A stretch of 32,026 nucleotides of DNA from contig JAIRNB010000028.1 of the NCBI GenBank assembly GCA_031258265.1, forward strand, positions 1 to 32,026. Reading direction: 5' to 3'. This DNA comes from Treponema sp. GTDB taxonomy: Bacteria > Spirochaetota > Spirochaetia > Treponematales > Breznakiellaceae. Positions 2,035-31,570 of the stretch are shown in pieces. The position numbers and the translations under genes are program-made. Each line of letters opens with the position of its first letter. Within the stretch, counting starts at the first letter, position 1. The notes under the pieces are model-generated. The model did no database searches, was not told where the DNA came from, and saw only the letters and a list, made by a program, of their open reading frames with translations.

Positions 2035-2496
2035 ATGAGATGTCCCCATTGCGGTAATTCGGATGATAAAGTTATAGAATCCCGCACCTTAGCCAACGGG
2101 GCGGCGATTCGCCGCCGCCGGGAGTGCAGTAACTGCGGTTTCCGTTTTACCAGCTATGAGAGGATTGAAGACAAACAGTTCATGGTTATCAAGAGGGACG
2201 GCCGCCGGGAGCCCTTTGACCGGCAGAAGATCGAGCGGGGGGTAGACCGGGCCCTGGAAAAGCGGCCGGTTTCCCCCATGATGATCGACAGCCTGGTCAA
2301 CCAGATCGAAGATCAGGCGGCTATTATGGGTAAGGTCAATCATGAGATCAGCGCCTCCAGTATCGGGGATCTGGTGCTGGAAAAACTGGCCCTGGTGGAC
2401 AAGGTGGCGTATATTCGTTTCGCGTCCGTATACAGGCACTTTGAGAATCTGGATGAATTTATCCGGGAAATACAAAAAATGGGGGACCTTCCTTGA
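2035..2496 (+). CDS. nrdR: Transcriptional repressor NrdR
   Basis: CPHCGNSDDKVIESR...CSNCGFRFTSYERIE zinc ribbon and ATP-cone region; 153 aa. Confidence 0.97.
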   Translation: MRCPHCGNSDDKVIESRTLANGAAIRRRRECSNCGFRFTSYERIEDKQFMVIKRDGRREPFDRQKIERGVDRALEKRPVSPMMIDSLVNQIEDQAAIMGKVNHEISASSIGDLVLEKLALVDKVAYIRFASVYRHFENLDEFIREIQKMGDLP

Positions 2497-4565
2497 ATAG
2501 ACAGGTGGTAAAACGTTCCGGGGCTATCGAGGCTTACGACCGCTATAAGATATTCAGCGCCATAAGCCGGGCTTTTGACGCGGTGGAGAAGGATTCCCGG
2601 AAAGAGGGGTTTTCTCCGGAGGAACAGGACAGCCGGGTGGAGGCGGTTACAAGCCGGGTGGAGGTTCTGCTGGAGGAGATGATGCGGGGCCGTCATCCCT
2701 CCTCCATCCCCGCCATAGAGGAAATTCAGGACCTGGTGGAAACCGCCCTTATCGAAAAACAGGAAACGGCGGTTGCCAAGGCTTATATCCTTTACCGGGC
2801 CAGGCACGAGGCCCGGCGGGATCTTAAAAACCTGATGCTGGACATTGATTCCACCATGGACGGCTATCTTAGACAGTCCGACTGGCGGGTCAATGAAAAC
2901 GCCAATGTAAACTACTCCCTGGGGGGGCTGATCCTCCACAATTCGGGGAGCATCACCGCCAATTACTGGCTTAAAAACATCTATCCCCCGGAGATTGCCA
3001 ATGCCCACCGGGACGCGGATTTTCATATCCACGATCTTTCCATGTTTTCCGGCTACTGCGCCGGTTGGTCCCTGCGCCAGCTCATTGCCGAGGGGCTGGG
3101 GGGAGTGGCGGACAAGATCACCAGCAAGCCGGCGAAACACCTCTCCACCCTGATGCAACAGGCGGTAAATTTCCTGGGCTGCCTGCAAAACGAATGGGCC
3201 GGGGCCCAGGCTTTTAGTTCTTTTGACACCTATGTCGCCCCCTTTGTGAAGGCGGATAACCTGAGCGACAAAGAAATAAAACAGTGCCTCCAGAGTTTTG
3301 TCTTTGGGGTGAATACCCCCAGCCGCTGGGGCAGCCAGGCGCCCTTCACCAACATCACCCTGGATTGGGTCTGCCCCGCGGACCTCAAGGACCGGAAGGC
3401 CGTGACCGGGGGGCGGGAAATGGACTTTACCTACGGCCAATGCCAGGCCCAGATGGACCGGATAAACCGGATCTTTATCGAACTTATGCTGGAAGGGGAC
3501 GCGGACGGCCGGGGTTTTCAGTACCCCATTCCCACTTACAACATAACCAGGGATTTTGAATGGGACAGCGCCAACGCCGGGCTTCTCTTTGAAATGACCG
3601 CCCGCTACGGCACCCCCTATTTCCAGAATTTTATCAACTCCGACCTGAATCCCGCTGATGTAAGGTCCATGTGCTGCCGCCTCCAGTTGGACAAACGGGA
3701 ACTGCGGAAACGGGGGGGCGGCCTTTTTGGTTCCGATGAGCTTACCGGTTCCGTGGGAGTTGTAACCATCAACCTTCCCCGGATCGCCTACCTGGCCAAG
3801 GACCGGGGGGATTTTTACCGCCGCCTCGAAAAACTCATGAACCTGGCCAAGGAAAGCCTTATTATCAAACGAAAGACCGTAAAAAAACTCCTGGACGCGG
3901 GACTTTTCCCCTATACCCGCCGCTACCTGCAAACCCTGGACAGCCATTTTAACACCATTGGCCTGGTGGGAATGAACGAAGCCTTGCGGAATTTCATGGG
4001 GGAAAAAACCACCATCGCTACGCCGGAGGGTAAGGCCTTTGCCCTGGAGGTCCTGAACTTTATGCGGGAAAAGCTGGCGGATTTTCAGGAAGAAACGGGG
4101 GAACTCTTTAACCTTGAGGCTACTCCCGCCGAATCAACATCCTACCGCCTGGCGAAGCACGACAAGAGCCGTTACCCCGGCATTATTACCGCGGGAAGCG
4201 GGGAACCCTATTACACCAATTCTACCCAGCTTCCGGTAATGGAAACCGAAGATATTTTTGATGCCCTGGATCAGCAGGAGGCCCTGCAGACCGCCTATAC
4301 CGGGGGGACGGTTTTTCACGCCTTCCTGGGAGAGTCAATCGAAGACTGGCGGAGCTGCCGGGATCTGGTACGGAGCATCGCCTCCAATTACCGGATTCCC
4401 TATTTCACTATTTCCCCTACCTTTTCCGTATGTCCGGTCCACGGTTATCTGCGGGGGGAACATTTTCACTGCCCCAAATGCAGGGAGGAACAGGAGACGG
4501 AACTGCGGGAGGAAATCGCCGCCCTGGAACGGGAGCGGGAACAGATTTTAGAGGCGGTAACATGA
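2493..4565 (+). CDS. nrdD: Anaerobic (class III) ribonucleoside-triphosphate reductase, main polypeptide lacking the C-terminal glycyl-radical motif
   Basis: ATP-cone N-terminus, DFHIHDL, RSMCCRLQLD, GSVGVVTINLPRIAYL; ends FSVCPVHGYLRGEHFHCPKCREEQETELREEIAALEREREQILEAVT*. ATGA-type overlap with nrdR. Confidence 0.95.
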   Translation: MNRQVVKRSGAIEAYDRYKIFSAISRAFDAVEKDSRKEGFSPEEQDSRVEAVTSRVEVLLEEMMRGRHPSSIPAIEEIQDLVETALIEKQETAVAKAYILYRARHEARRDLKNLMLDIDSTMDGYLRQSDWRVNENANVNYSLGGLILHNSGSITANYWLKNIYPPEIANAHRDADFHIHDLSMFSGYCAGWSLRQLIAEGLGGVADKITSKPAKHLSTLMQQAVNFLGCLQNEWAGAQAFSSFDTYVAPFVKADNLSDKEIKQCLQSFVFGVNTPSRWGSQAPFTNITLDWVCPADLKDRKAVTGGREMDFTYGQCQAQMDRINRIFIELMLEGDADGRGFQYPIPTYNITRDFEWDSANAGLLFEMTARYGTPYFQNFINSDLNPADVRSMCCRLQLDKRELRKRGGGLFGSDELTGSVGVVTINLPRIAYLAKDRGDFYRRLEKLMNLAKESLIIKRKTVKKLLDAGLFPYTRRYLQTLDSHFNTIGLVGMNEALRNFMGEKTTIATPEGKAFALEVLNFMREKLADFQEETGELFNLEATPAESTSYRLAKHDKSRYPGIITAGSGEPYYTNSTQLPVMETEDIFDALDQQEALQTAYTGGTVFHAFLGESIEDWRSCRDLVRSIASNYRIPYFTISPTFSVCPVHGYLRGEHFHCPKCREEQETELREEIAALEREREQILEAVT

Positions 4566-4573
4566 GGAACAAA

Positions 4574-4612
4574 GGGGCCTCTAAAACCTTTCCGGGGTTT
4601 TTAGAGACGCCC
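4574..4612 (+). promoter_or_regulatory. Intercistronic hairpin between nrdD and the small radical-domain gene
   Basis: GGGGCCTCTAAAACC...GGTTTTTAGAGACGCCC; imperfect stem with small bulges, not followed by a clean U-tract. Confidence 0.6.
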
Positions 4613-4641
4613 TCTATTTTATTTAGAAGGAGTAACAGGAA

Positions 4642-5154
4642 ATGAGGACCCTTGAGGAAGTAGAAAAAGATTTGGAACGGACCAGGGAGGCCCTTGCATC
4701 GGTAGAGGGGATGCCCGCGGAGGTATACAGCCGTATCGTGGGTTACTACCGTTCAGTGCGGAACTGGAACCGGGGCAAACGGGAGGAGTACGGTGAACGG
4801 CGGCTTTACAACCTGTCCCTGCCGGAACATTCCGGCAGGGCGGGTACTGCCGCGCCTTCACCTGTTCCTGCCCCGGAACCTGCCGCCCCGGATTCCCGTA
4901 CAAGCGGGGAAAGCTCCAGGGTGCTTCTCTTCTGGCGTCCCGCCTGCCCGGCCTGCCCTTCGGCTAAAGAAGCGGCAGGCCGGCTGGGGATTCCGGTGGA
5001 CCTGGTAAACGCCGATACGGAAACGGGATTCGCCGAGGCCGTAAAGCGGAACGTACTTGCCACCCCCACCGCCATCTTCCTTTCCCCGGCGGGAACGGAA
5101 ATCGGCAGGGCTTTGGATTCCCGTTCCATCGCCGCCTTCGGCGCCGCGGTTTAA
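4642..5154 (+). CDS. Stand-alone NrdD-type glycyl-radical domain fused to a thioredoxin/glutaredoxin-like (CPAC) domain
   Basis: EVYSRIVGYYRSVRNWNRGKREEYGERRLY resembles the C-terminal radical region of class III RNRs; RVLLFWRPACPACPSAKEAA redoxin motif and ATPT cis-Pro-like motif; AGAAGGAG SD; in-frame TAA at 4633-4635 upstream. Confidence 0.85.
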   Translation: MRTLEEVEKDLERTREALASVEGMPAEVYSRIVGYYRSVRNWNRGKREEYGERRLYNLSLPEHSGRAGTAAPSPVPAPEPAAPDSRTSGESSRVLLFWRPACPACPSAKEAAGRLGIPVDLVNADTETGFAEAVKRNVLATPTAIFLSPAGTEIGRALDSRSIAAFGAAV

Positions 5155-5188
5155 AACGCAGGAATTCCGGGGGCCTTCGCCTTTAGAT

Positions 5189-5911
5189 ATGCGGCACCTT
5201 CCCCCGGTAATCCTGCGGAAAACCAGTCTGGTGGATTACCCGGGCAGGGTCTGCGCGGTTATCTTTCTGCCGGGATGCAACCTCCGTTGTCCCTGGTGTC
5301 AGAACCGGGAACTGGTCCTGGCCGGTGATTCGGCAAAGGACAGCACGGAAGGGGGGGATTTTATCCCCCCCGTTGAGGCGATGGCCCTGATTCAAAAGCG
5401 GAAAACGGTGCTGGGAGGGGTGGTCATCTCCGGGGGGGAACCGACCATCCACCCGGCCCTGGGGGCCCTGGTCGGCGAAATCCACAGCCTTGGGCTGGCG
5501 GTAAAACTCGATACCAACGGCATGAATCCTTCAAGACTCAAGGAACTCTGGGCGGATAGAGCCTCCCGGCCCGATTACATCGCCCTGGATCTTAAGCTGG
5601 CCCCCGGCCGTTACAGGGAACTCCTATCCGGCCCCCGCTCCTTTGATCCCGCCGCCGCCCTGGCCGAAAGCGCCGCCCTGCTGCGGGACTCCGGGGTAGA
5701 GCATGAATTCCGCAGCTTAGCCCTGCCGGACGCTTACTTTGGAGCGGAGGACATTAAAGCCCTGGCCCCCCTGGCCGGGGGCAGTCCCTGGAATGTCCGG
5801 CCCTTCATACCGGGAAACTGCCTGGAACCGGCCTGGAATTCCCTTCCCGCCGCGGGAGAAAAGGAAACGGCCCGGCTGGCGGAAATGGCGCGGCGGAAAG
5901 CCCGGCCCTAA
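5189..5911 (+). CDS. nrdG: Anaerobic RNR-activating protein, radical SAM (NrdG2-like)
   Basis: LPGCNLRCPWCQN (CxxxCxxC), VVISGGEPTIHPAL, KLDTNGMNP. ORF track starts at 5057 but homology begins near ATG 5189; exact start uncertain. Confidence 0.9.
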   Translation: MRHLPPVILRKTSLVDYPGRVCAVIFLPGCNLRCPWCQNRELVLAGDSAKDSTEGGDFIPPVEAMALIQKRKTVLGGVVISGGEPTIHPALGALVGEIHSLGLAVKLDTNGMNPSRLKELWADRASRPDYIALDLKLAPGRYRELLSGPRSFDPAAALAESAALLRDSGVEHEFRSLALPDAYFGAEDIKALAPLAGGSPWNVRPFIPGNCLEPAWNSLPAAGEKETARLAEMARRKARP

Positions 5912-7224
5912 GGGTCCTGCTTTACCAGCTCCGCCCCCATGACCGCGACATTGTAAATGGGCGCGTAGAAACTGGTTAGAAAATATACGGTTTTTCCACC
6001 TTCCTTTGTATAGACGGGGTGCATAAAGGCCCCGTACAAACCGGGATAATCGGATTGCTTGGCTATGATGTGGGCCGCGCTGAAAGGCCCCTCCAGGGTC
6101 TTGGAACTCCGCATGATCAGATTCTCAGCGGCCAGGTAACTGATAAGCCACTCATCCACATAGGGACTGTACATCACCGACAGTTCCCCCGCGGGCCCCG
6201 GTATGACGCGGGCCGCGTTTTCTTCGGCCCCCTCCCCGCTTTTGTACAGGGGCAGGTTTTCCTCAAAACCGCTGAAATACTCATACGCGCTTTTATCCTC
6301 GACCCGATCTTCCCGGACCCGCATAAGGCCCACGGGGCCGGTCCGCCCTCCCCCGATACCGTAAAAGTACACATAACCCTGGTACTTCACCGGACAGAGT
6401 TGTACAAAAATGCCCTGGCCGTCCCATCGCGGACTCTCAAGCTTTTCCCAGCTTTGGCCGTTGTTACGGCTTCGTGCCAGGCCCCCGTAATTGCAGTCCC
6501 ATTTACCGGGCTCGCCCCAGTGCCTTACCGACATATAGCAGAGGTACAGGGTATCGCCTATGGAGAATCCCCCCGTGGGGATCACCGTCATTTCGATATT
6601 GTCCTGCCTGCGGGCATGGAGCAGCTCAATGGCATTCCGGTTTAGCTTCGTGCTGATCATCCGGTCAAAAAGGATGCCGTCGGAGGCGTCCCTGTCGGAG
6701 CTGACGGCAAGAACATTGCTCCGCCAGTCCCCCGTAAAACCGGGGCCGGAAAAGGTGTCTCCAAAGGCGATGAATATTTCCTCCCCCCTGTCAAATATTA
6801 TCCCCAGATCCGTACCAAAAACACGGTAATTGCTTAAGGTCCTGTTTATCGAATACTCGCCGGTCAGGGCCTCCACGATGCGGACATCTTTTAGGCCCTT
6901 AAAGTTATAGGGAAAATCCTCCCCCTTGGGGGGATAATTAAGACGCTTTTTTTTATATTCATAAAAGCGAAGTTCCCCGGCATCGGCGGCGGACGCCGCG
7001 TCAACGGCAGGTGCCGCGTCAATGGCCTGCACAACGTCAACGGCCGGCGCAGCGGAAGAGGGATCGCCGGCCTTTTTTTCCGCGCAGGAAACAAAACAGA
7101 AAACCGGCCCCAGGATCGCCAGGGCAAGCAACCTGCCGCGGCGGAGGATTCCCCCGCCACCGCCAAATCGAAAAAGCCGGCTGCCCGGCATCTTTCCGGT
7201 CTTCACGCATCTCCCCACTGCCAT
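5908..7224 (-). CDS. DUF4185-family (GH183-like) lipoprotein
   Basis: LALAILGPVFCFVSCAEKK lipobox-like signal; FGTDLGIIFDRGEEIFIAFGDTFSGPG...WRSNVLAVSSD; MYSPYVDEWLISYL. Confidence 0.75.
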   Translation of the reverse strand: MAVGRCVKTGKMPGSRLFRFGGGGGILRRGRLLALAILGPVFCFVSCAEKKAGDPSSAAPAVDVVQAIDAAPAVDAASAADAGELRFYEYKKKRLNYPPKGEDFPYNFKGLKDVRIVEALTGEYSINRTLSNYRVFGTDLGIIFDRGEEIFIAFGDTFSGPGFTGDWRSNVLAVSSDRDASDGILFDRMISTKLNRNAIELLHARRQDNIEMTVIPTGGFSIGDTLYLCYMSVRHWGEPGKWDCNYGGLARSRNNGQSWEKLESPRWDGQGIFVQLCPVKYQGYVYFYGIGGGRTGPVGLMRVREDRVEDKSAYEYFSGFEENLPLYKSGEGAEENAARVIPGPAGELSVMYSPYVDEWLISYLAAENLIMRSSKTLEGPFSAAHIIAKQSDYPGLYGAFMHPVYTKEGGKTVYFLTSFYAPIYNVAVMGAELVKQDP

Positions 7225-8291
7225 TTTTCCTCGTCTATGGGGAGCCGTCCTTCCACCGGCGGCAGCGGATCAAATTTCTTATGCGGTTCGGTCTGATACC
7301 AGTAGGCTGTGGAGCTTATATCGTCGCGGCGGTGATTAGCGTGGCCATGTTCAATGGTGGCCCGGATAGATTTGGTAAACATGACGGGGTCCTGTATGTG
7401 GTAACGGTAATAACTGATCTTCCCCTTCCAGTTATCATCTCCCCCCAGAATAAGGCCGTGGTATGGGGCCGCGTAGCTCTGGGTGGGGCACCAGGCCATG
7501 TTCACGTAATCTTCCGTCCCTGTACCGTGCAGACGCGGAGGCCAGGGTTCCCCGTCAATAAAAAACATATCGTCCCCTTCTCCGGGCCAATCCCAAAGGG
7601 CGCTTTTCCCCAGGTTATGTATGTTAATATTGGCCCCCACATAGTGGCCGGCCCCCTCCGCTTCCATAAGAACGTAGTTATCCTTCCCGTCCCGGTTTTG
7701 CCCTCCAAAACAGTATTCCCGATGGTTTGAAAATTCTTCCGGTTCCCTTCCCCCGGTGGGGTTTTGCCGCCGCCACTGGGCATGGAAGCGCAGGGCGGAA
7801 TCGGGAAGGCCGGGCATTAGTTCATAGTCAACATAATAATAAACGATCAGGGTCGATTCACATTCGTTGGTGACGGTCAACAGGGCCCGCTCCGCAAAGG
7901 GCATGGGAAACCAGCAGTTAAGGGCCTTCCCGTCCTGGGGGCTCATCTGCAGGGGGGCGGACACAAAATTCCGCGTCATGCCGTGCCCCATACCAAAGAA
8001 ATCGCCGGCGGGCGCTTCGACGCTGGGGTTCTCCTCGTTATCCCAATAAAAGCGGAGGAGGGCCTTGCGGAGGGAATACTTTTCCTGGGTAAAGCCGTCG
8101 TTGGCAAGGGTCATCCAGATATGGGTAACAAGGCCGGCCCCCTTTATGTCCGCGATGGGCGCGGTATCCCCGCTTTTAATATATATCCGGTCATCATTTC
8201 CCCCGGTACGATCGTAGGAAGATTCCCTCATCCGTTTGGAATCCCGTTTCAGAAAAATGTTCGACAGGCCGGCGGTAGAAAATGTACCCAT
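7203..8291 (-). CDS. DUF2961-family (GH172-like) protein, no signal peptide
   Basis: GAGLVTHIWMTL, FYWDNEENPSVEAPAGDFFGMGHG, GTGTEDYVNMAWCP, RYHIQDPVMF motifs. Confidence 0.88.
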   Translation of the reverse strand: MGTFSTAGLSNIFLKRDSKRMRESSYDRTGGNDDRIYIKSGDTAPIADIKGAGLVTHIWMTLANDGFTQEKYSLRKALLRFYWDNEENPSVEAPAGDFFGMGHGMTRNFVSAPLQMSPQDGKALNCWFPMPFAERALLTVTNECESTLIVYYYVDYELMPGLPDSALRFHAQWRRQNPTGGREPEEFSNHREYCFGGQNRDGKDNYVLMEAEGAGHYVGANINIHNLGKSALWDWPGEGDDMFFIDGEPWPPRLHGTGTEDYVNMAWCPTQSYAAPYHGLILGGDDNWKGKISYYRYHIQDPVMFTKSIRATIEHGHANHRRDDISSTAYWYQTEPHKKFDPLPPVEGRLPIDEEKWQWGDA

Positions 8292-8336
8292 GTTTAAACT
8301 CCCCTTTTACTGGTTTTATGCCCGGTTTTACGGGCC

Positions 8337-9161
8337 CTATTTTAAGCCGGATAATACGACTCCGGCGACGATCCGTTTTTGAAAAACAAAGAACAACGCT
8401 ATTGGGGGCAGCACAATAACACAGCCCGCCGCCAGGACGGAACCGTAATTTGAGCTGTAAAAAGAACTATAGGACCGAACCACCTGCATAACCTGCATTA
8501 AATGGGGGCTGGATATGGTCATGGAGGGCCATATAAAACTATTCCAGTAGCCGGTAAAGGTCCCCGCCCCCATGACTACCATGGGGGCTACGCTCATGGG
8601 TACAAAGATAAACCAGAATATCCGGAATCTGGTACAGCCGTCAATGAGGGCGGCCTCTTCAAAACTGCCGGGGAGATTAAGAAAAAACTGGCGGAAAAAG
8701 AATATGCTGTAACCGGAAACCAGGCCGGGAAGAATAAGCACCCAGACGGTATCCAGCATCTTCAACTGATTCACCACCAGGAATGATGTTATCAATATGG
8801 CGATTCCCGGAACAAACATCGTGGAAATAGCGATGACCCAGAAAACTTTTTTAAGCTTGAACTCCAGCCGGGCAAAGGCATAGGCGGCCATCATATTGAG
8901 GAGCAGGGAAAGAACCACCGCCGATGAAGCCACGATAAAAGTAACCACCATGGCGTTGGGCAGGGGATAGGTTTTATTGTTGATCACGTTCTGGTAATTC
9001 GCCGGATCAAAGACCGATGGAAAAAACTTTAAGGGGATGGCGTAGATCTCCCGCCTGGTCTTAAAACTCGAAAGGACCATCCACAAAAAGGGGAAAAGGG
9101 CCAGGAATACCGCAACAAGACTGACAATATAGGCGGGTATTTTACCCGTTATTTTTTTCAC
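8337..9161 (-). CDS. Carbohydrate ABC transporter permease (MalG type)
   Basis: Multi-TM protein; EEAALIDGCTRFRIFWFIFVPMSVAP EAA loop. Confidence 0.93.
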   Translation of the reverse strand: MKKITGKIPAYIVSLVAVFLALFPFLWMVLSSFKTRREIYAIPLKFFPSVFDPANYQNVINNKTYPLPNAMVVTFIVASSAVVLSLLLNMMAAYAFARLEFKLKKVFWVIAISTMFVPGIAILITSFLVVNQLKMLDTVWVLILPGLVSGYSIFFFRQFFLNLPGSFEEAALIDGCTRFRIFWFIFVPMSVAPMVVMGAGTFTGYWNSFIWPSMTISSPHLMQVMQVVRSYSSFYSSNYGSVLAAGCVIVLPPIALFFVFQKRIVAGVVLSGLK

Positions 9162-9165
9162 GACG

Positions 9166-10044
9166 TTACGCCTCCAGGGATTTCTCGGACCTGATGATTT
9201 TGAATATGACGGCGTTAACCGATGCGATAATAACCAGCATGATCAGGGCTCCGGCGATGGTATAGCCCAAGCCCTTATCAACATCCCGGTAGTTGTTGTA
9301 CAGGTACAACATGGGGGTAAGAGTCTGGCTGGCAGGTCCCCCGCCGGTCATCATATAGGGCAGGTCGAACATCTGCAGGGTTCCGGTGGTAAGGCTGATG
9401 CAGATAAGGATAAATATATTCTTCATCTGGGGGATGGTTATAAAAAGCATTTTGCCCAGGGCTCCCGCGCCGTCAATCGAAGCGGCGTCATAATATTCCT
9501 GGGGAATATTCACCAGGGCGGCATACATCAGGATCGTGTTTCCCCCCAGGCCTATCCATGCAGTAACGGCGCTGACGCTGAGAACCGCCAGAACCGGAGA
9601 ATTAAAAAAAGCGATCCGGTCAAAACCCAGGGCCCGCAGACTCTGGTTAATGATCCCGGCGTTGAAATTAAAGATAAAATTGAAGATCAGGGCAACGGCT
9701 ATCCCCGACACAATGCCGGGGATATACAGAACGGTTTTTGAAAAATCCGCCCATGTCCGGGGAAGAATCTTTAGGATATTGGACAGTAAAAACGAGAAGA
9801 ACATCATCCCCGGCACGATAATACATACAAATTTTCCCGCGTTGATCAGGGACTGGCGGAACAGCGTGGTCTTAAGGATGATGCTGAAATTCCGCAGGCC
9901 AACAAATGTGGAGTCCTGGTAAAAGGACACGTTAAAAAAACTATACCGCAGGGCCATGAACAGCGGAGCGATAACAAACACCAGCAAAAAAAGTAAAGCC
10001 GGAGATGCCATCGCGTAGGCGGTAAGCGAGTCCCTGTTTTTCAT
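9166..10044 (-). CDS. Carbohydrate ABC transporter permease (MalF type)
   Basis: Multi-TM; YYDAASIDGAGALGKMLFITIPQM EAA loop; likely start MKNRDSLTAYAMASPALLF at 10044. Confidence 0.92.
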   Translation of the reverse strand: MKNRDSLTAYAMASPALLFLLVFVIAPLFMALRYSFFNVSFYQDSTFVGLRNFSIILKTTLFRQSLINAGKFVCIIVPGMMFFSFLLSNILKILPRTWADFSKTVLYIPGIVSGIAVALIFNFIFNFNAGIINQSLRALGFDRIAFFNSPVLAVLSVSAVTAWIGLGGNTILMYAALVNIPQEYYDAASIDGAGALGKMLFITIPQMKNIFILICISLTTGTLQMFDLPYMMTGGGPASQTLTPMLYLYNNYRDVDKGLGYTIAGALIMLVIIASVNAVIFKIIRSEKSLEA

Positions 10045-10069
10045 ACATACCTCCGGCTTCTTTGGGAAC

Positions 10070-11374
10070 CTACTTGCCGGGATTCTTTCCCGCCAGCTCA
10101 TTGTTCTTGATAATTTCGCTGATAGTCTTCGCGGCCTCCTCCGCGGCGGCATCAACGGATACCCCGTTGATGGCTACATTTTCAAACATGGTGGCCACCG
10201 CCACGGAAATATCCCATGGGTATACCGGCTCGGGTATGGCCCGGGAGGCGACATAGGCGATGGGCTCCGCCCAGGCCGCATCCCCGGCGGCATGGGCGGC
10301 GATATACTCGTCCACGCTTTTCCGGGGAGAGGATTTTGAATACTGGGCTATCTCAAAAAATTCCGCCGGAATAGACGGGTCGTCCCCCAAAAGCCAGTAG
10401 ATATAATCGGCCATGGCCTTCTCATGGCTTGTCTTTGCGTCGATCACAAAAGTCCAGCCGCCGTTGGTGGCGGTGGGTTTATCCTGGTTTCCGTCCTTTG
10501 TGGGGACCGGAGCCACGGCGAAAAGTTCCGCCATTTCAGGATGATCATTGATGATTCCCGCAACTCCCCAGGAGCCGCAGATCTGCATCGCCACATAACC
10601 CAGCCCGAAGGGCTCAATATTCGTGTAGCCCGACAGGGACTGTTCCGGTACCACCCCTTCCGCGTACAGACGCCTGTAGAAATTCGCCAATTCCTTGTAA
10701 TTATTGTCGATAAGCGGGGCATCCCAGTTGTCGTTTATCGCCAGGTGGCCGGAAACCGCGTATTGGGCCCCCCAGGTACACCAGCCAAAGGCCCCAAAAT
10801 CGCCGATAGCCAGGCCGTACATATCCCTGGTACCCAATTTTTTACCGTATTCGATAAGCTCGTCCCAGGTCCTGGGGGGCCGGGTAAGGCCGGCCTTTTC
10901 AAAGAGATCTTTCCGGTAAAAAAGGACCGCCGACGGCTCCACAAGCTGGGGATATGCGTACACCTTGCCGTCAAAGGTAACCATGGACTTTACATTATCA
11001 TGAATATCGTCCAGGGCCGGCTGGGGGACCAGGCCGTTAAGGGGCATCAGCTCGCCCCGGACTACGCCGCCGCGGATATTGTTGTAGGCGATAACATAGC
11101 CATCGGGGGCGGTACCGGAGGCGATGGCCGCGGTCATCCGTTCGGTCCAGGCGTCACCGGTGATAAATTCCTGATTCACCCGGTATCCCCTGTTCAGGGC
11201 GTTGTACTGTTCCGCCTTTTTTTCAAAGTACTCTACATTCCAGGTCTCAAACACCTGGTTCCAGAAGCTGAACTCTTCTACCTGGACGGTAGTGGAGGAC
11301 CCTCCCCCCCGCTTGCATCCGCAGAACACCGCGATAATGCCCAGGGCCAGAAAAAACCTTACGCCAATTTTCAT
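10070..11374 (-). CDS. Extracellular solute-binding protein family 1, lipoprotein
   Basis: Lipobox-like AVFCGC; FYRKDLFEKAGLTRPPRTWDELIEYGKKL. Confidence 0.93.
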   Translation of the reverse strand: MKIGVRFFLALGIIAVFCGCKRGGGSSTTVQVEEFSFWNQVFETWNVEYFEKKAEQYNALNRGYRVNQEFITGDAWTERMTAAIASGTAPDGYVIAYNNIRGGVVRGELMPLNGLVPQPALDDIHDNVKSMVTFDGKVYAYPQLVEPSAVLFYRKDLFEKAGLTRPPRTWDELIEYGKKLGTRDMYGLAIGDFGAFGWCTWGAQYAVSGHLAINDNWDAPLIDNNYKELANFYRRLYAEGVVPEQSLSGYTNIEPFGLGYVAMQICGSWGVAGIINDHPEMAELFAVAPVPTKDGNQDKPTATNGGWTFVIDAKTSHEKAMADYIYWLLGDDPSIPAEFFEIAQYSKSSPRKSVDEYIAAHAAGDAAWAEPIAYVASRAIPEPVYPWDISVAVATMFENVAINGVSVDAAAEEAAKTISEIIKNNELAGKNPGK

Positions 11375-13698
11375 TATTTTTCTCCTCCTATGTTTTTTTC
11401 AGGTTCAACAAACCTGTTAAATACCATGGTTTCCAGGGGCGCCATGTTTAGTTTTACTGTGCCCGCAGGGACGGGAGGCATGGGGGTCTCATCCGGGCAG
11501 CCGGGATTCTTAACCGCCTCCCAGGCTCCGCCGCCGGACAAAAGAATTTCCGCCTCCTCGTGAAAAAGGGAAGTGTTCACCACATAGAGAACCTCTTTGC
11601 CCTCGAAACAGTAACCCTGGCCCAGCACCGCATCCAAAAGAACAATCCCCCGGTCTCCCTGTTCCCCCGATGCAAGGCCATGGTTGTACATATAGTAGCC
11701 GCGGTAAATTCTCCTGCATCGAATTTCGGGAGTCTTCAACATTCGGCCATAGATAAGCGGGGCCCCATGAACGCCAAGGCGCAGCCGGGCGCATTTCCCG
11801 GTGAACTTCGCCGGTCCCGGATCATAGGCAAAGCCCTGGGGTAAAAAATGGTAATAGTGTTCCTCCGGCTTGTTGGTCTTTCCGCCGATCCATTCCATTT
11901 CGCTGTATTCAAGGTTGATCTCAAAAATACCGCCCCACAGATAGGTCTTTGCGATGCTGTGATAAATAATGTCCCCCGTTTCAGCGGTGAATTTACCCCA
12001 GCCATCACAGCGCAGGGGGGCGTATTCACTGTAGACATACTGAAAAAGCGGTATAACCCTGGCCTTATTTTGGCGGATCAGTTTCCGCAGGGGCCAGAAT
12101 TCCAGCGCCGAGTTCGGCTGGGCATTGGCCCGGGCCTGGTAGTAATCAACTTCCCCGATAAGCGTCTCGTTGATCATCTCCGTGCCGATGGGAACATAGG
12201 CCCCCTTTTTCCCGGCCATGGCCTCCTTGGTTTCCCGGTAGATCCGCCGGTAGGCCCCGGTCATCTCCGCCCCCGCGCCGGGGGCATGGCCGTGGTCCCC
12301 CGACATACAGGTTTTAATGATATTATTGGCGGAAATATCGTAGTACAGGGCGTCGCAGCCCGATTCCTCCACAAGCCGCGCGTCCCGCCTTACATGGAGG
12401 TCCCGGGCGTATTCGGTCAGGGGACAGAGCATGTTAAACGTGTATTTATCCACCGATTTCGGCCGATCCGGCCATGCCTGCAGATTTTTCCTAATAAGTT
12501 CCGCGTCTGTTTTATCCACGGCGGTGAGGAAATCAAATTCAAAGGGGGCGAAATGATCCCCCTGACGCCGGATACACTCGATATTTTTCCGGCTGAAACG
12601 GGCGGGAAACCAGCCGCCGTATCCACCGGGGAGTGAGTTGTAGAAGTTCTGATCCACCCGCGGCCAGTCGGGGCCCAGGATATGAAAAAGGGGACTCCCA
12701 ATATCCCGGCGGTAACGCTCTATCCAGAGGCTCCGGTCATGGGAGGCGTCAATACCAAAGGTAACCGCCCCCGTTTCCCCGGTAAGCCATTTAGCGGCCC
12801 CGCCGCGCTCCGCCAGCCTCCCCTTTTCGCACCAGGGCTGCCGTAGAGCCCAGGACCTGTATATACCGGCGCAGCTTTCCCAGCGTCCTTCCCGCAGGGG
12901 GACAAGCGCAAAATCCCAGTCTTGCTCCAGCCCTTTTCCCTTGCCCGTATCTTCATAACCGTATATCTGGCTGGCCCGGAGCTTCCCCCCTTGTTTGTAA
13001 AAGTTAAGCCACTTCTGCCGCCCCCCGCCGTCACGGGCAGTAAAAAACAAACCGGGGCCCCCCTTCATGTAATAGGCGAAAAACTGCATGGCCGCGCCGG
13101 AAAAACTCTCCGGGTAAGGCATGTAGCGCAGCCCCCCGCCCCCATCCTCAAAATTTTCCAGGGGTGAGTCGATCTCTATCCCCGTAGCCCAGGGGTGAAT
13201 CAACTGATGAATACCGCCGCCAAAACGGGAAATGCCATCTATAACCGGATATTCCAGCGAATAGACGATCCCGTCCCCCCGGTTCTCCACGGAAGACCGG
13301 AAAACAAGCCCCCCCGCCCCCAGGCTCAGACGCGCATGGATACTCAAGCCCCCCGCAAGAGTCCAGGAGAAAAGGGTCCCCGCCTCCCCAGGGGAAGGAG
13401 AGACGGGGGAAGGAGAAACAGAAAAACACTCAAAGGCGGAACAGAGTCCAGCCCCCCCGGCCTCCCCGCCGCGCTCAAGGAGAAAAGGGACATCCAGAGA
13501 ATTTTTAAGGTACTCCACAGCGGAACTGTCATCGGAAAAGGACAATAGAACCCCGGTACTTTTATCAAAAACCGCCCGGAGGGTTCCGCTCTTTAGTTCT
13601 ATTACCGTCACGGTAACATGATGGAACGGGAATTTTGGGACTGTCAATAAAAACCCACTAATTTCCCGGTTTCGGTTTATGGCATCACAGTTTTTCAA
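11374..13698 (-). CDS. Large DUF6259-like putative glycoside hydrolase; start may be downstream (near 13617)
   Basis: PLFHILGPDWPRVDQNFYNSLPGGYGGWFPARF and CDALYYDISANN type TIM-barrel motifs; co-directional with the ABC genes. Confidence 0.6.
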   Translation of the reverse strand: MKNCDAINRNREISGFLLTVPKFPFHHVTVTVIELKSGTLRAVFDKSTGVLLSFSDDSSAVEYLKNSLDVPFLLERGGEAGGAGLCSAFECFSVSPSPVSPSPGEAGTLFSWTLAGGLSIHARLSLGAGGLVFRSSVENRGDGIVYSLEYPVIDGISRFGGGIHQLIHPWATGIEIDSPLENFEDGGGGLRYMPYPESFSGAAMQFFAYYMKGGPGLFFTARDGGGRQKWLNFYKQGGKLRASQIYGYEDTGKGKGLEQDWDFALVPLREGRWESCAGIYRSWALRQPWCEKGRLAERGGAAKWLTGETGAVTFGIDASHDRSLWIERYRRDIGSPLFHILGPDWPRVDQNFYNSLPGGYGGWFPARFSRKNIECIRRQGDHFAPFEFDFLTAVDKTDAELIRKNLQAWPDRPKSVDKYTFNMLCPLTEYARDLHVRRDARLVEESGCDALYYDISANNIIKTCMSGDHGHAPGAGAEMTGAYRRIYRETKEAMAGKKGAYVPIGTEMINETLIGEVDYYQARANAQPNSALEFWPLRKLIRQNKARVIPLFQYVYSEYAPLRCDGWGKFTAETGDIIYHSIAKTYLWGGIFEINLEYSEMEWIGGKTNKPEEHYYHFLPQGFAYDPGPAKFTGKCARLRLGVHGAPLIYGRMLKTPEIRCRRIYRGYYMYNHGLASGEQGDRGIVLLDAVLGQGYCFEGKEVLYVVNTSLFHEEAEILLSGGGAWEAVKNPGCPDETPMPPVPAGTVKLNMAPLETMVFNRFVEPEKNIGGEK

Positions 13699-13810
13699 TA
13701 CAATACTGCTGACAAGCCATAGAGGGGCATATACGGCCGAATTTTAAGTTTTGTTACCAGGCTGTCCGGCAGCCAAAACACACGAAACAAAATTCCAAAT
13801 CCCGCGAGAC

Positions 13811-14205
13811 GCGCGCACTGCGCGCACTGCCCCGGTTAAAACCGGGGCGCATTGGTAAATTTTGGGGTATTTTCTGGCGCTAAGCCATGCCGCATTGTCA
13901 AATAGACAAGCTGCGCTTGCCTGCCGCGGGCTCAGCTAAAGCTGGGGCGCATTGCCCAATATCTGGGGAATCACTGGCGCTATGCGGTTCCGCATTTGTT
14001 AATATACAGCCTGGCCGGCAGGATGCCGGCTGTAAGGAATTTCTACGTTTTTGCAAAGCAAAAACGTAAAGCTAAAAAATGGCAGGGATGCCATTTTTTA
14101 GCAGCGCAAGGGATTGGAGGGGCCCGAAGGGGCCACCGCAGTCCCGCAGGGACGAGGAGGCCGGAGCCCCGGAAAGCCCGGTCCCCGCGAAGCGGGGATG
14201 CGCCC
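13811..14205 (+). repeat. Dispersed palindrome-rich intergenic element, copy B (with internal duplication)
   Basis: CCCCGGTTAAAACCGGGGCGCATT, AGCTAAAGCTGGGGCGCATT, GCTAAAAAATGGCAGGGATGCCATTTTTTAGC, GCGCAAGGGATTGGAGGGG, CCCCGGAAAGCCCGGTCCCC, ATGCGCCC. Confidence 0.85.
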
Positions 14206-14228
14206 ATAGAAACTCGACATTTGGCCTG

Positions 14229-15230
14229 TTATATCTTCCGCTGGAGGGGGACCGGATACGCGCCGGTTTCCAGTTTGGTGATAAGAATTTTGCAGAGCTC
14301 CGCCCCCAGGGTAAAGAAAGAGGGGGCCACCCTTTTTACCGGGCTTAGGCCCTTGTAGTGGAAAAGATCCTCCTCGCAGTCGTAAACAAGGAAATTATCG
14401 TTTTTTACCCTGATCTCATGCTGGATAAATTTCGCCGCCACAATATAATTCGCGGAAAAATCCACCGAAAAAACCGCGCAGCGGGAATCAAAGTTGTTAA
14501 AAAAAGAATCCAGGGCATTCATGGCCCCAAATTCCGTTAGACAGACATACTTTATACTGCCGGAAAAATCCTTTACCGCGTCGTACAGGCCCTCGAAGCG
14601 GCGGTTCTTCCTCTGCGGGTAATAGCCGGCCACCAGAATCCTGCGGTATCCATTATCCAGAAAAATCCGCCCCGCCTCCCCGGCATGCCGGTAATTATTG
14701 GTCTGTACCACCGGGAGGCCGGGAAACTCATCGGGAATAATATCCGCCGCTATATCCAGCCCCTCCCTCATGACGTGGTAGAAAGGAAGCGCCGAATTAC
14801 TAAAATAAAGGGCGATGATGCCGTTGACATTCAGGGACAAAAGGTATTCCCCGAAACGGAGGGAACAGGTATCAATGTTGGGGAGTTCCTCAAAACTGAC
14901 GTTTATGCCCTTCTCCCCGGCGGTCTCCCGGATTCCCTTGAAGAAAGCCCGGTTAAAACGGGTATCCTCCCGGGCGGACACCACCGCTATTCTATAATCC
15001 CCCGCCTTTCCCAAAGGACGGACAGATTTTACCGTGATGCCGGCCCGCTGTTTTACGGAGAGGCAGCCCAGCTCTTCGAGTTTTTTCACCGCCCGCTGGG
15101 CGGTCTGGACGCTTACCTGAAATTTTTCCGCCAGTTTTCTAACGGAAAGGTACTTGGAACCCTCGGAATAGTGATTCTCCAGATCCCGTTTTACCGTGTT
15201 GAAAAATTCGTCAAAGATTTTTCTGGGCAT
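14229..15230 (-). CDS. GntR-type wHTH regulator with LacI/periplasmic-binding-like sensor domain
   Basis: KYLSVRKLAEKFQVSVQTAQRAVKKLEELGCLSVKQRAG, then PBP-like domain. Confidence 0.88.
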   Translation of the reverse strand: MPRKIFDEFFNTVKRDLENHYSEGSKYLSVRKLAEKFQVSVQTAQRAVKKLEELGCLSVKQRAGITVKSVRPLGKAGDYRIAVVSAREDTRFNRAFFKGIRETAGEKGINVSFEELPNIDTCSLRFGEYLLSLNVNGIIALYFSNSALPFYHVMREGLDIAADIIPDEFPGLPVVQTNNYRHAGEAGRIFLDNGYRRILVAGYYPQRKNRRFEGLYDAVKDFSGSIKYVCLTEFGAMNALDSFFNNFDSRCAVFSVDFSANYIVAAKFIQHEIRVKNDNFLVYDCEEDLFHYKGLSPVKRVAPSFFTLGAELCKILITKLETGAYPVPLQRKI

Positions 15231-17983: not shown

Positions 17984-18306
17984 GGGCGCATCCCCGCCCC
18001 TTTCGGGGCGGGGACCGGGCTATCCGCTCCAATTCCTCAGCTTTACCTGCGGTAAAGCCTCCGGTATTTCCGCTTCTATCCCTTGCGCGCGCAAACTTCG
18101 TTTGCGGCTAAAAAATGGCATCCATGCCATTTTTTAGCACGTTTATCACAGCCGGCATCCTGCCGGCCAGGTTGTTAATTAAACCAATGTGGCTTCGCAT
18201 AGCGCCATCGTATGCCCCCAAATTGGAAAATGCGCCCCGGTTTTAACCGGGGCAGTGCGCGCGCGGCTCACCGCGCTTTTTGCGCGGTGAGCTGGAACAA
18301 AAGCCA
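17984..18306 (-). repeat. Dispersed palindrome-rich intergenic element, copy C
   Basis: Minus strand reads GGCTTTTGTTCCAG[stem]CCGCGCGCGCACTG CCCCGGTTAAAACCGGGG CGCATTTTCCAATTTGGGGGCATACGATGGCGCTATGCG... to ATGCGCCC next to the kinase SD. Confidence 0.85.
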
Positions 18307-26850: not shown

Positions 26851-27370
26851 CCGGATTATCTAATATACAGCCTCTGGCCCTTGGCTTTTGTTCCAGCCCA
26901 AACCTGCGGTTTGGGCCGCGGCCGCACTGCCTCCGCTAAAGCGGAGGCGCATTTTTCAATTTGGGGGCATACGGAGGCGCTATGCGTAGCCGCTTTGGTT
27001 CAATAACAGCCTGCCGGCATGGGGCGAAGTAATTGCCCTGGTAAGGGGCGTTAAGGAAAAAATGTAACACCCGCCCGGCGCAGGGCAACTGTACTTATCC
27101 CGGCCAAATGCAAGCCCGGCTTTAGGCGGGCGGGCGCGCCGCGGGGCCGGCTGTGATAGACGTATACGTTTTTGCAAAGCAAAAACGTAAAGCCCAAAAA
27201 TGGCATGGATGCCATTTTTGGGCCGCAAACGAAGTTTGCGCGCGCAAGGGATTGTAGGGGCGCGCAGCCCCGAAGGGGCTGGAGCGTTCCCGGAGCGAAG
27301 CGCAGGGAATGAAGCGTAAGCGGAACCCCGAAAAGCCCGGTTTCCGGCGCACAGCGCCGGAAATGCGCCC
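26851..27370 (+). repeat. Dispersed palindrome-rich intergenic element, copy D (upstream of clpS)
   Basis: TTGGCTTTTGTTCCAG[stem]..GCACTG CCTCCGCTAAAGCGGAGG CGCATTTTTCAATTTGGGGGCATACGGAGGCGCTATGCG; ACGTTTTTGCAAAGCAAAAACGT; GCCCAAAAATGGCATGGATGCCATTTTTGGGC; ATGCGCCC. Confidence 0.85.
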
Positions 27371-31038: not shown

Positions 31039-31081
31039 AGAAGGGGCAAGGTCTTTCGCCTATTCGATTTTTTAAGCGGCG

Positions 31082-31111
31082 GCTGTTCAAAAACTGAAGT
31101 TTTTGAACAGC
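31082..31111. repeat. Perfect 14-bp-stem hairpin GCTGTTCAAAAACT-GA-AGTTTTTGAACAGC (copy 2 of 2)
   Basis: Read directly; see copy at 147-176. Confidence 0.85.
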
Positions 31112-31570
31112 TCTAATATATTGCCTGTGGTCTTATTTTCCGGTTACACAAAATAAATAATCCCCGCCTAAAGGCGGTGGGTTTAAACCTGGCACATGAA
31201 AAATATAAGAATGCCGCAGGCCGTGAAACGTGATACTCCTCCGGCGCTGTTCTTAATCGTCTATAACCTTTTTCCCGTTCTTATCAGTGGTGAATTTGTT
31301 TGTACCGATTACTAAAGCTCGACAACCAATGCCCGGCGGAAAAAATTATTGCTCAGGGGTTCACCCTGACGGCGCATACCTTCAAAGACAAAATGATCCG
31401 GAGCGGGGTTTGCCGATGTTTGCCGGGCCGCCTCGGTCCCCTTTCTGCGCCTTCCCTGGCACCTTTTCCTCCTGCCGGCCGGCGGGGCCCCCGGAAGTTC
31501 AAGTCTCCAAGCGCCGGGGGAAAGATCATATTGAAAACGCTGGTTTTTTAAGCGAGATTAACTTTTTCTT

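Follow-up and report, generated by a model that had tools for sequence, protein, structure and literature searches.

What might a spirochaete gain from a gene cluster that places members of two glycoside hydrolase families, GH183 (DUF4185) and GH172 (DUF2961), beside a carbohydrate importer? This arrangement is found on contig JAIRNB010000028.1 of a Treponema sp. draft genome (GCA_031258265.1; 2.9 Mb, 399 contigs, 86.6% complete), and the window analysed here is that whole contig, 32,026 nucleotides (nt) long. An earlier annotation made from the letters alone, hereafter the sequence-only reading, had named seven genes of one co-directional cluster, and Pfam matches together with the open reading frame (ORF) list recovered all seven where it had placed them, on the minus strand from 15230 to 5908. 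Because active-site conservation, synteny with Paenibacillaceae loci (often including FucI and FGGY proteins) and an induced Microbacterium locus all agree, we consider it very likely from sequence comparison that the cluster is a D-arabinan utilisation operon. The same three lines of evidence are consistent with the route proposed by the sequence-only reading, namely surface endo-cleavage of D-arabinan, import, and cytosolic exo-cleavage. The unusual sugar polymer D-arabinan is a hallmark of the walls of Mycobacteriales, and ethambutol targets its synthesis. D-arabinan-degrading enzymes were first described in 2023, from Actinomycetota, Bacteroidota, Myxococcus, a phage and a parasitic bacterium; new here are a spirochaete locus and its widespread counterpart in soil bacteria of the Paenibacillaceae, and our literature searches found no paper on a D-arabinan locus in either group.

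The assignment of the DUF4185 protein (5908..7224, minus strand) to GH183 is firm as judged from sequence: the PF13810 match is nearly full length (281.6 bits against a cut-off of 39.5, E=1e-83, model positions 2-308 of 309), and among solved structures EndoMA1 (8hhv) and its D51N mutant 8ic1 come nearest (2.9e-58). The EndoMA1 active site comprises the nucleophile Asp33, the acid/base Asp51, and Glu243, Arg198, Trp138, Pro141, Leu292 and Tyr293 (PMC10509167), and all eight residues are identical in the window protein (in the same order D139, D156, E347, R294, W236, P239, L396 and Y397), where Asp139 is the candidate nucleophile, Asp156 the candidate acid/base and Glu347 a candidate supporting residue. 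A lipobox-like FVSC motif (Cys47), followed by an Ala/Pro/Asp-rich linker, bears out the earlier description of this protein as a lipoprotein. A tree built from GH183 homologues places it, with support of 100/99, among transporter-adjacent lipoproteins of Paenibacillaceae and Actinomycetota, in a clade that includes the gene adjoining the substrate-binding protein (SBP) gene of Microbacterium arabinogalactanolyticum. To judge from its position beside the SBP, this gene is presumably MIAR_33320, which D-arabinose and an extract of mycobacterial walls induce, as they do the M. arabinogalactanolyticum locus, and whose product was insoluble in E. coli (PMC10509167). Other hosts now offer versions of this transporter-adjacent subclade, which resisted expression from Microbacterium.

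The DUF2961 protein (7203..8291, minus strand) matches PF11175 over its full length (280 bits, 1.7e-83) and is homologous to the solved structures 4kq7, alphaFFase1 (7v1v), DgGH172c (8ah3) and 8ic8. With reference residues taken from PMC8605356 and PMC10115798, Glu238 and Glu260 correspond to the GH172 catalytic pair, and Asp261, Trp235, Trp267, Tyr151, Asn32 and Asp34 are also kept, the last three matching active-site residues that the neighbouring subunit provides in alphaFFase1 (Tyr187, Asn31 and Asp33). The active-site alignment that had been named as a check on the sequence-only reading thus favours it for both families. No signal peptide was seen when the sequence was read by eye, in line with the earlier claim of a signal-less protein, and we predict a cytosolic exo-alpha-D-arabinofuranosidase-like enzyme. 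Gly299 of alphaFFase1, which leaves space for the C1 hydroxymethyl group of fructose, has been tied to acceptance of that sugar, and Asn253 of ExoMA1 to arabinose specificity (PMC10509167). The Gly299 position is occupied by Cys268 in the window enzyme and by the same Cys in 4kq7 and in the D-arabinofuranosidase DgGH172c; in 4kq7 this residue appears to clash with fructofuranose (PMC8605356). Cys268 in place of Gly299 therefore favours action on alpha-D-arabinofuranose (alpha-D-Araf) rather than on alpha-D-fructofuranose (alpha-D-Fruf). Two residues form part of the alphaFFase1 +1 site, of which Lys147 falls opposite a gap in the window enzyme and Glu85 within an unaligned stretch.

Read 5' to 3' on the minus strand, the gene order is regulator, DUF6259, SBP lipoprotein, permease 1, permease 2, DUF2961 and DUF4185. 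From DUF6259 through DUF4185, adjacent genes overlap or are separated by gaps of at most 46 nt, so that a single transcription unit is likely. The predicted ATP-binding cassette (ABC) importer comprises a CUT1 substrate-binding lipoprotein (10070..11374; SBP_bac_1, 2.9e-31), permease 1 (9166..10044; PF00528, near UgpA/GlcT in NCBIfam; likely starting at an internal ATG at 10044, the mechanical ORF extending to 10155) and permease 2 (8337..9161; PF00528, 6.7e-15, near UgpE in NCBIfam), all on the minus strand, and CUT1-type ATPases (TOBE_2) are encoded in the host genome. The window holds the set of secreted GH183, ABC importer and cytosolic GH172 found in the Gram-positive type of locus. The best solved relative of the SBP is 4qrz, which has also been named as a relative of MIAR_33310 (PMC10509167). 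In each of nine other genomes one SBP match was outstanding (234-385 bits) amid 10-75 SBP matches per genome, with a runner-up that did not exceed 118 bits other than in one genome, where a second copy scored 305 bits; where checked (Paenibacillaceae regions, and M. arabinogalactanolyticum at 37% identity), the outstanding match was the SBP of the GH183 locus. Permease 2 and permease 1 are 45-53% and 35-42% identical, respectively, to permeases in syntenic loci.

The sequences themselves establish gene content, catalytic-residue conservation, synteny and the linkage of DUF6259; from these we infer activities, substrate, transport direction, regulation and D-arabinose catabolism, in a model that would run as follows. 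The surface-anchored GH183 lipoprotein would cut alpha-(1,5)-D-arabinofuranan outside the cell. D-Araf oligosaccharides would be taken up by the SBP and the two permeases, served by a shared ATPase encoded in the genome, and the cytosolic GH172 would release alpha-D-Araf from their non-reducing end. The DUF6259 protein would take off the cap or branch stopping GH172 (at best guess terminal beta-D-Araf, else alpha-D-galactosamine, alpha-D-GalN, or another substituent), with the GntR-type regulator governing the operon.

The DUF6259 protein (ORF 11374..13698, minus strand; PF19773, 3.8e-21) is a concrete candidate for a missing enzyme of the D-arabinan pathway, and our literature search found no paper on DUF6259. 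Homologues suggest that it starts at a GTG at 13611, from which residues are numbered here. Foldseek searches with its AlphaFold2 model (predicted local distance difference test, pLDDT, 86.9; predicted TM-score, pTM, 0.90) retrieved FpGalactosaminidase, GH129, GH36 alpha-galactosidases and GH101, with E-values down to 1.8e-22 and TM-scores up to 0.68, and the modelled beta-sandwich, alpha/beta barrel and C-terminal beta domain agree with the GH129/GH101 fold. The best solved folds for the model (NagBb, 5wzn; ZgGH129, 8rzk; FpGalNase, 9awt) are, however, only 8-14% identical in sequence, and a profile search of solved structures found no GH129, GH101 or GH36 member, yielding only a borderline match to a GH38 C-terminal domain. 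Asp425 and Glu478 are invariant across 29 sequences, down to 16% identity; in the model Asp425 ends a predicted strand and Glu478 lies just past the next one. Given this fold and two invariant residues of the kind expected of a nucleophile and an acid/base, we predict a retaining glycosidase of the GH129/GH101/GH36 type, cytosolic in that no signal peptide was seen when the sequence was read by eye.

The likely task of this enzyme is to take away a cap or branch on which GH172 cannot act. In Microbacterium, beta-D-Araf ends are cleaved off by the GH116 enzyme ExoMA2 (PMC10509167), and a passage of PMC5964476, citing Peng et al. 2012, places GalN, reported as alpha-linked, on C2 of some 3,5-branched Araf residues. 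In our judgement terminal beta-D-Araf is the foremost single candidate, though somewhat short of an even chance, and alpha-D-GalN about half as probable; other caps are possible. Alpha-GalN explains the near-universal linkage described below less well because the reports of GalN come from slow-growing mycobacteria.

DUF6259 is a tightly linked component of the D-arabinan locus. Close homologues (>580 bits) number 28 genes in 27 of 300 Paenibacillaceae genomes; canonical GH183 occurs in all 27 of these genomes and in 2 of the 273 others (G399, G450), with a Fisher p=1.9e-36 that overstates independence, as the genomes are related. For all but one of these 28 genes, a GH183 is found no more than 4 kb away. 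The spirochaete, with the same partners in a different gene order, adds an instance outside Paenibacillaceae. A GH183 was missing from the stretch examined around three DUF6259 copies, namely a second copy in G412 (L203, contig C15) and those of G432 (L220) and G416 (L222), the latter two with a GH172 nearby. DUF6259 and GH116 do not strictly exclude each other, as both occur in four Paenibacillaceae loci (L197, L213, L214, L157). Among 38 GH183+GH172 loci of the scan set, 16 had GH116 without DUF6259, 4 had DUF6259 without GH116 and 18 had neither in the stretch covered, and among 29 regions around Paenibacillaceae-type loci, 25 had DUF6259 without GH116 and 3 had both. The split otherwise tracks phylum and is only suggestive.

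The cluster can be compared with known systems and with a Paenibacillaceae counterpart. A contig scan found canonical GH183 in Actinomycetota, Paenibacillaceae, Myxococcota, Chloroflexota and Acidobacteriota, and identity over the best segment did not exceed 43%. Alongside GH183, Paenibacillus taihuensis, Cohnella zeiphila and Paenibacillus sp. PL91 encode relatives of the window's GH172 (~60% identity, as also in some Actinomycetota GH183 loci), SBP (42-46%) and DUF6259 (42-45%). In PL91 the order is GH172-LacI-FucI-FGGY-GH172-GH183-SBP-permease-permease-DUF6259-GH183-ADH-GH183, the leading LacI being read from sequence appearance. Most Paenibacillaceae regions examined have the same six core genes (35-61% identical), and about half have a FucI-type isomerase and an FGGY kinase. 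In these loci DUF6259 comes last, whereas in the spirochaete it comes first, and they often add LacI, FucI, FGGY, a second GH183 and an ExoMA1-like GH172, and sometimes GH116. The D-arabinan-like locus of Paenibacillus bovis DE0126 (L101) also encodes a sulfatase and a GH43 protein (7201-8715; 12424-13629), which suggests a modified substrate there. The polysaccharide utilisation locus (PUL) of M. arabinogalactanolyticum (PMC10509167) likewise has secreted GH183, an ABC importer, signal-less exo-enzymes including a GH172, and a GH183 lipoprotein beside the SBP, but it differs in having several GH183, the GH116 ExoMA2 and an isomerase and kinase, in a genome without DUF6259, and its GH172 ExoMA1 belongs to another clade (33% identical to the window GH172). 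Dysgonomonas gadei PUL42 (PMC10115798) shares GH183 endo- and GH172 exo-enzymes, among them DgGH172c with the same Fruf-discriminating Cys, but is a Bacteroidota PUL with multiple GH172s and GH183s and a fucose isomerase; no DUF6259 was found for it in the literature search.

The sequence-only reading had kept open a fructan or difructose dianhydride I (DFA I) substrate, and the operon could serve alpha-fructofuranosides (DFA I, inulobiose) if its GH172 acted like alphaFFase1, the DFA I synthase/hydrolase of Bifidobacterium dentium. The two enzymes are 41% identical over the stretch compared, GH172 has dual alpha-D-Fruf/alpha-D-Araf activity as a family, and the alphaFFase1 gene (catalytic Glu270/Glu291) adjoins an ABC transporter (PMC8605356). 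The change from Gly299 to Cys268, the residue said to clash with fructose in 4kq7 (PMC8605356, PMC10509167), nevertheless rules this out as the leading explanation, and Lys147 of the +1 site has no match. This operon and nearly all of the syntenic loci moreover encode a GH183 endo-D-arabinanase-type protein, whereas no GH183 partner is reported for alphaFFase1, and a fructofuranoside substrate is very unlikely. A substrate containing D-Araf from a source besides actinobacterial arabinogalactan or lipoarabinomannan would be a variant of D-arabinan utilisation, and such glycans exist: lipopolysaccharide O-antigens and pilin glycans can carry D-Araf, and D-Araf oligosaccharides of pilin are substrates of GH172 and GH183 enzymes (PMC10115798, PMC8605356). 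The related Microbacterium locus responds to mycobacterial wall extract, however (PMC10509167), and we hold this variant to be possible but the less probable source. A role in remodelling or recycling D-arabinan of the organism's own surface, instead of feeding on a foreign one, is highly improbable, even though a function on the walls of the producing cells has been proposed for mycobacterial GH183 (PMC10115798): the cluster combines a regulator with an importer and an exo-enzyme of the cytosol, and has no arabinan-synthesis gene. No spirochaete is known to make D-arabinan.

Several findings weigh against D-arabinan utilisation or the roles assigned within it. GH172 members can also cleave alpha-D-fructofuranosides, and the literature search found no assayed member of the GH183 subclade to which the window protein belongs. 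The window cluster has no FucI/FGGY pair; elsewhere, the incomplete host genome gave seven FGGY kinases and, for Fucose_iso_C, weak matches only (29.8 and 26.8 bits), besides a weakly matching FucI-like protein on contig C142. Two host clusters with FGGY kinases were considered as a D-arabinose pathway and set aside, since by sequence appearance they look like araBAD for L-arabinose; they lie on contigs C164 (L153) and C368 (L155), with one regulator each. GH116 (PF04685) had no match in the host genome at its 86.6% completeness. Shared ancestry bears on the DUF6259 linkage, and DUF6259 might be a bystander, or act on an unrelated imported sugar, its linkage stemming from one inherited Paenibacillaceae operon: most loci come from one family, some copies lie away from GH183 (L203, L220, L222), and actinobacterial loci do without it. 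The spirochaete nonetheless has the same partners in another gene order, and for 27 of the 28 close homologues a GH183 is at most 4 kb away, so we regard a bystander role as unlikely. We lean slightly towards a broader proposal, in which the GH183-linked DUF6259 clade would form a glycoside hydrolase family not yet described, active in D-arabinan breakdown, that removes non-alpha-D-Araf blocks to GH172 (terminal beta-D-Araf, the task of GH116 ExoMA2, or alpha-D-GalN), and D-arabinan feeding would reach spirochaetes by old horizontal transfer.

The distribution within the phylum is consistent with such a transfer. DUF6259 of the window type was present in 1 of 394 sampled genomes of the order, the host itself, and in none of five others of the genus, and in the phylum scan no other sampled genome had a DUF4185 match above 76 bits, compared with 283 here. 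About 33 other genomes of the phylum had distant DUF4185 matches, mostly of 40-75 bits and often to the C-terminal half of the model only, apparently from a different subfamily. Recent transfer from a sequenced donor is unsupported, with best GH183 identity of at most 45% and no clear GC break; the 35-61% identity to the Paenibacillaceae set and the lack of a clear GC break therefore point to an old acquisition, most likely horizontal and from an unsampled donor.

Upstream of the operon and ~530 nt from DUF6259, on the same strand, the co-directional regulator gene (14229..15230) probably controls the operon. It had been called a GntR/LacI regulator; the GntR DNA-binding domain is supported (PF00392, 3.4e-8), and Pfam detected no LacI-type sensor domain. 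The intergenic region (13612..14228, minus strand) contains a promoter-like TTGACA-N18-CATCAT at 13647-13618, a consensus match only, and a copy of a dispersed palindromic repeat (GCTAAAAAATGGCA..TGCCATTTTTTAGC) at 14014-14106 (+), which reaches the Rfam gathering score for TD-2 RNA, a family known from Treponema; the match supports a treponeme-type spirochaete as the host. Lying between regulator and operon, this copy may act as a terminator. Copies at 27138-27227 (+) and 18103-18167 (-) score below the gathering score, and a related repeat lies at 362-470. Convergent with the D-arabinan operon, consecutive plus-strand genes at 2035-5911 encode NrdR, the anaerobic ribonucleotide reductase NrdD, a thioredoxin-like protein and a radical SAM protein. 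Near both contig ends, a 50-nt direct repeat (88%; 134-183 and 31069-31118) has a hairpin-like core.

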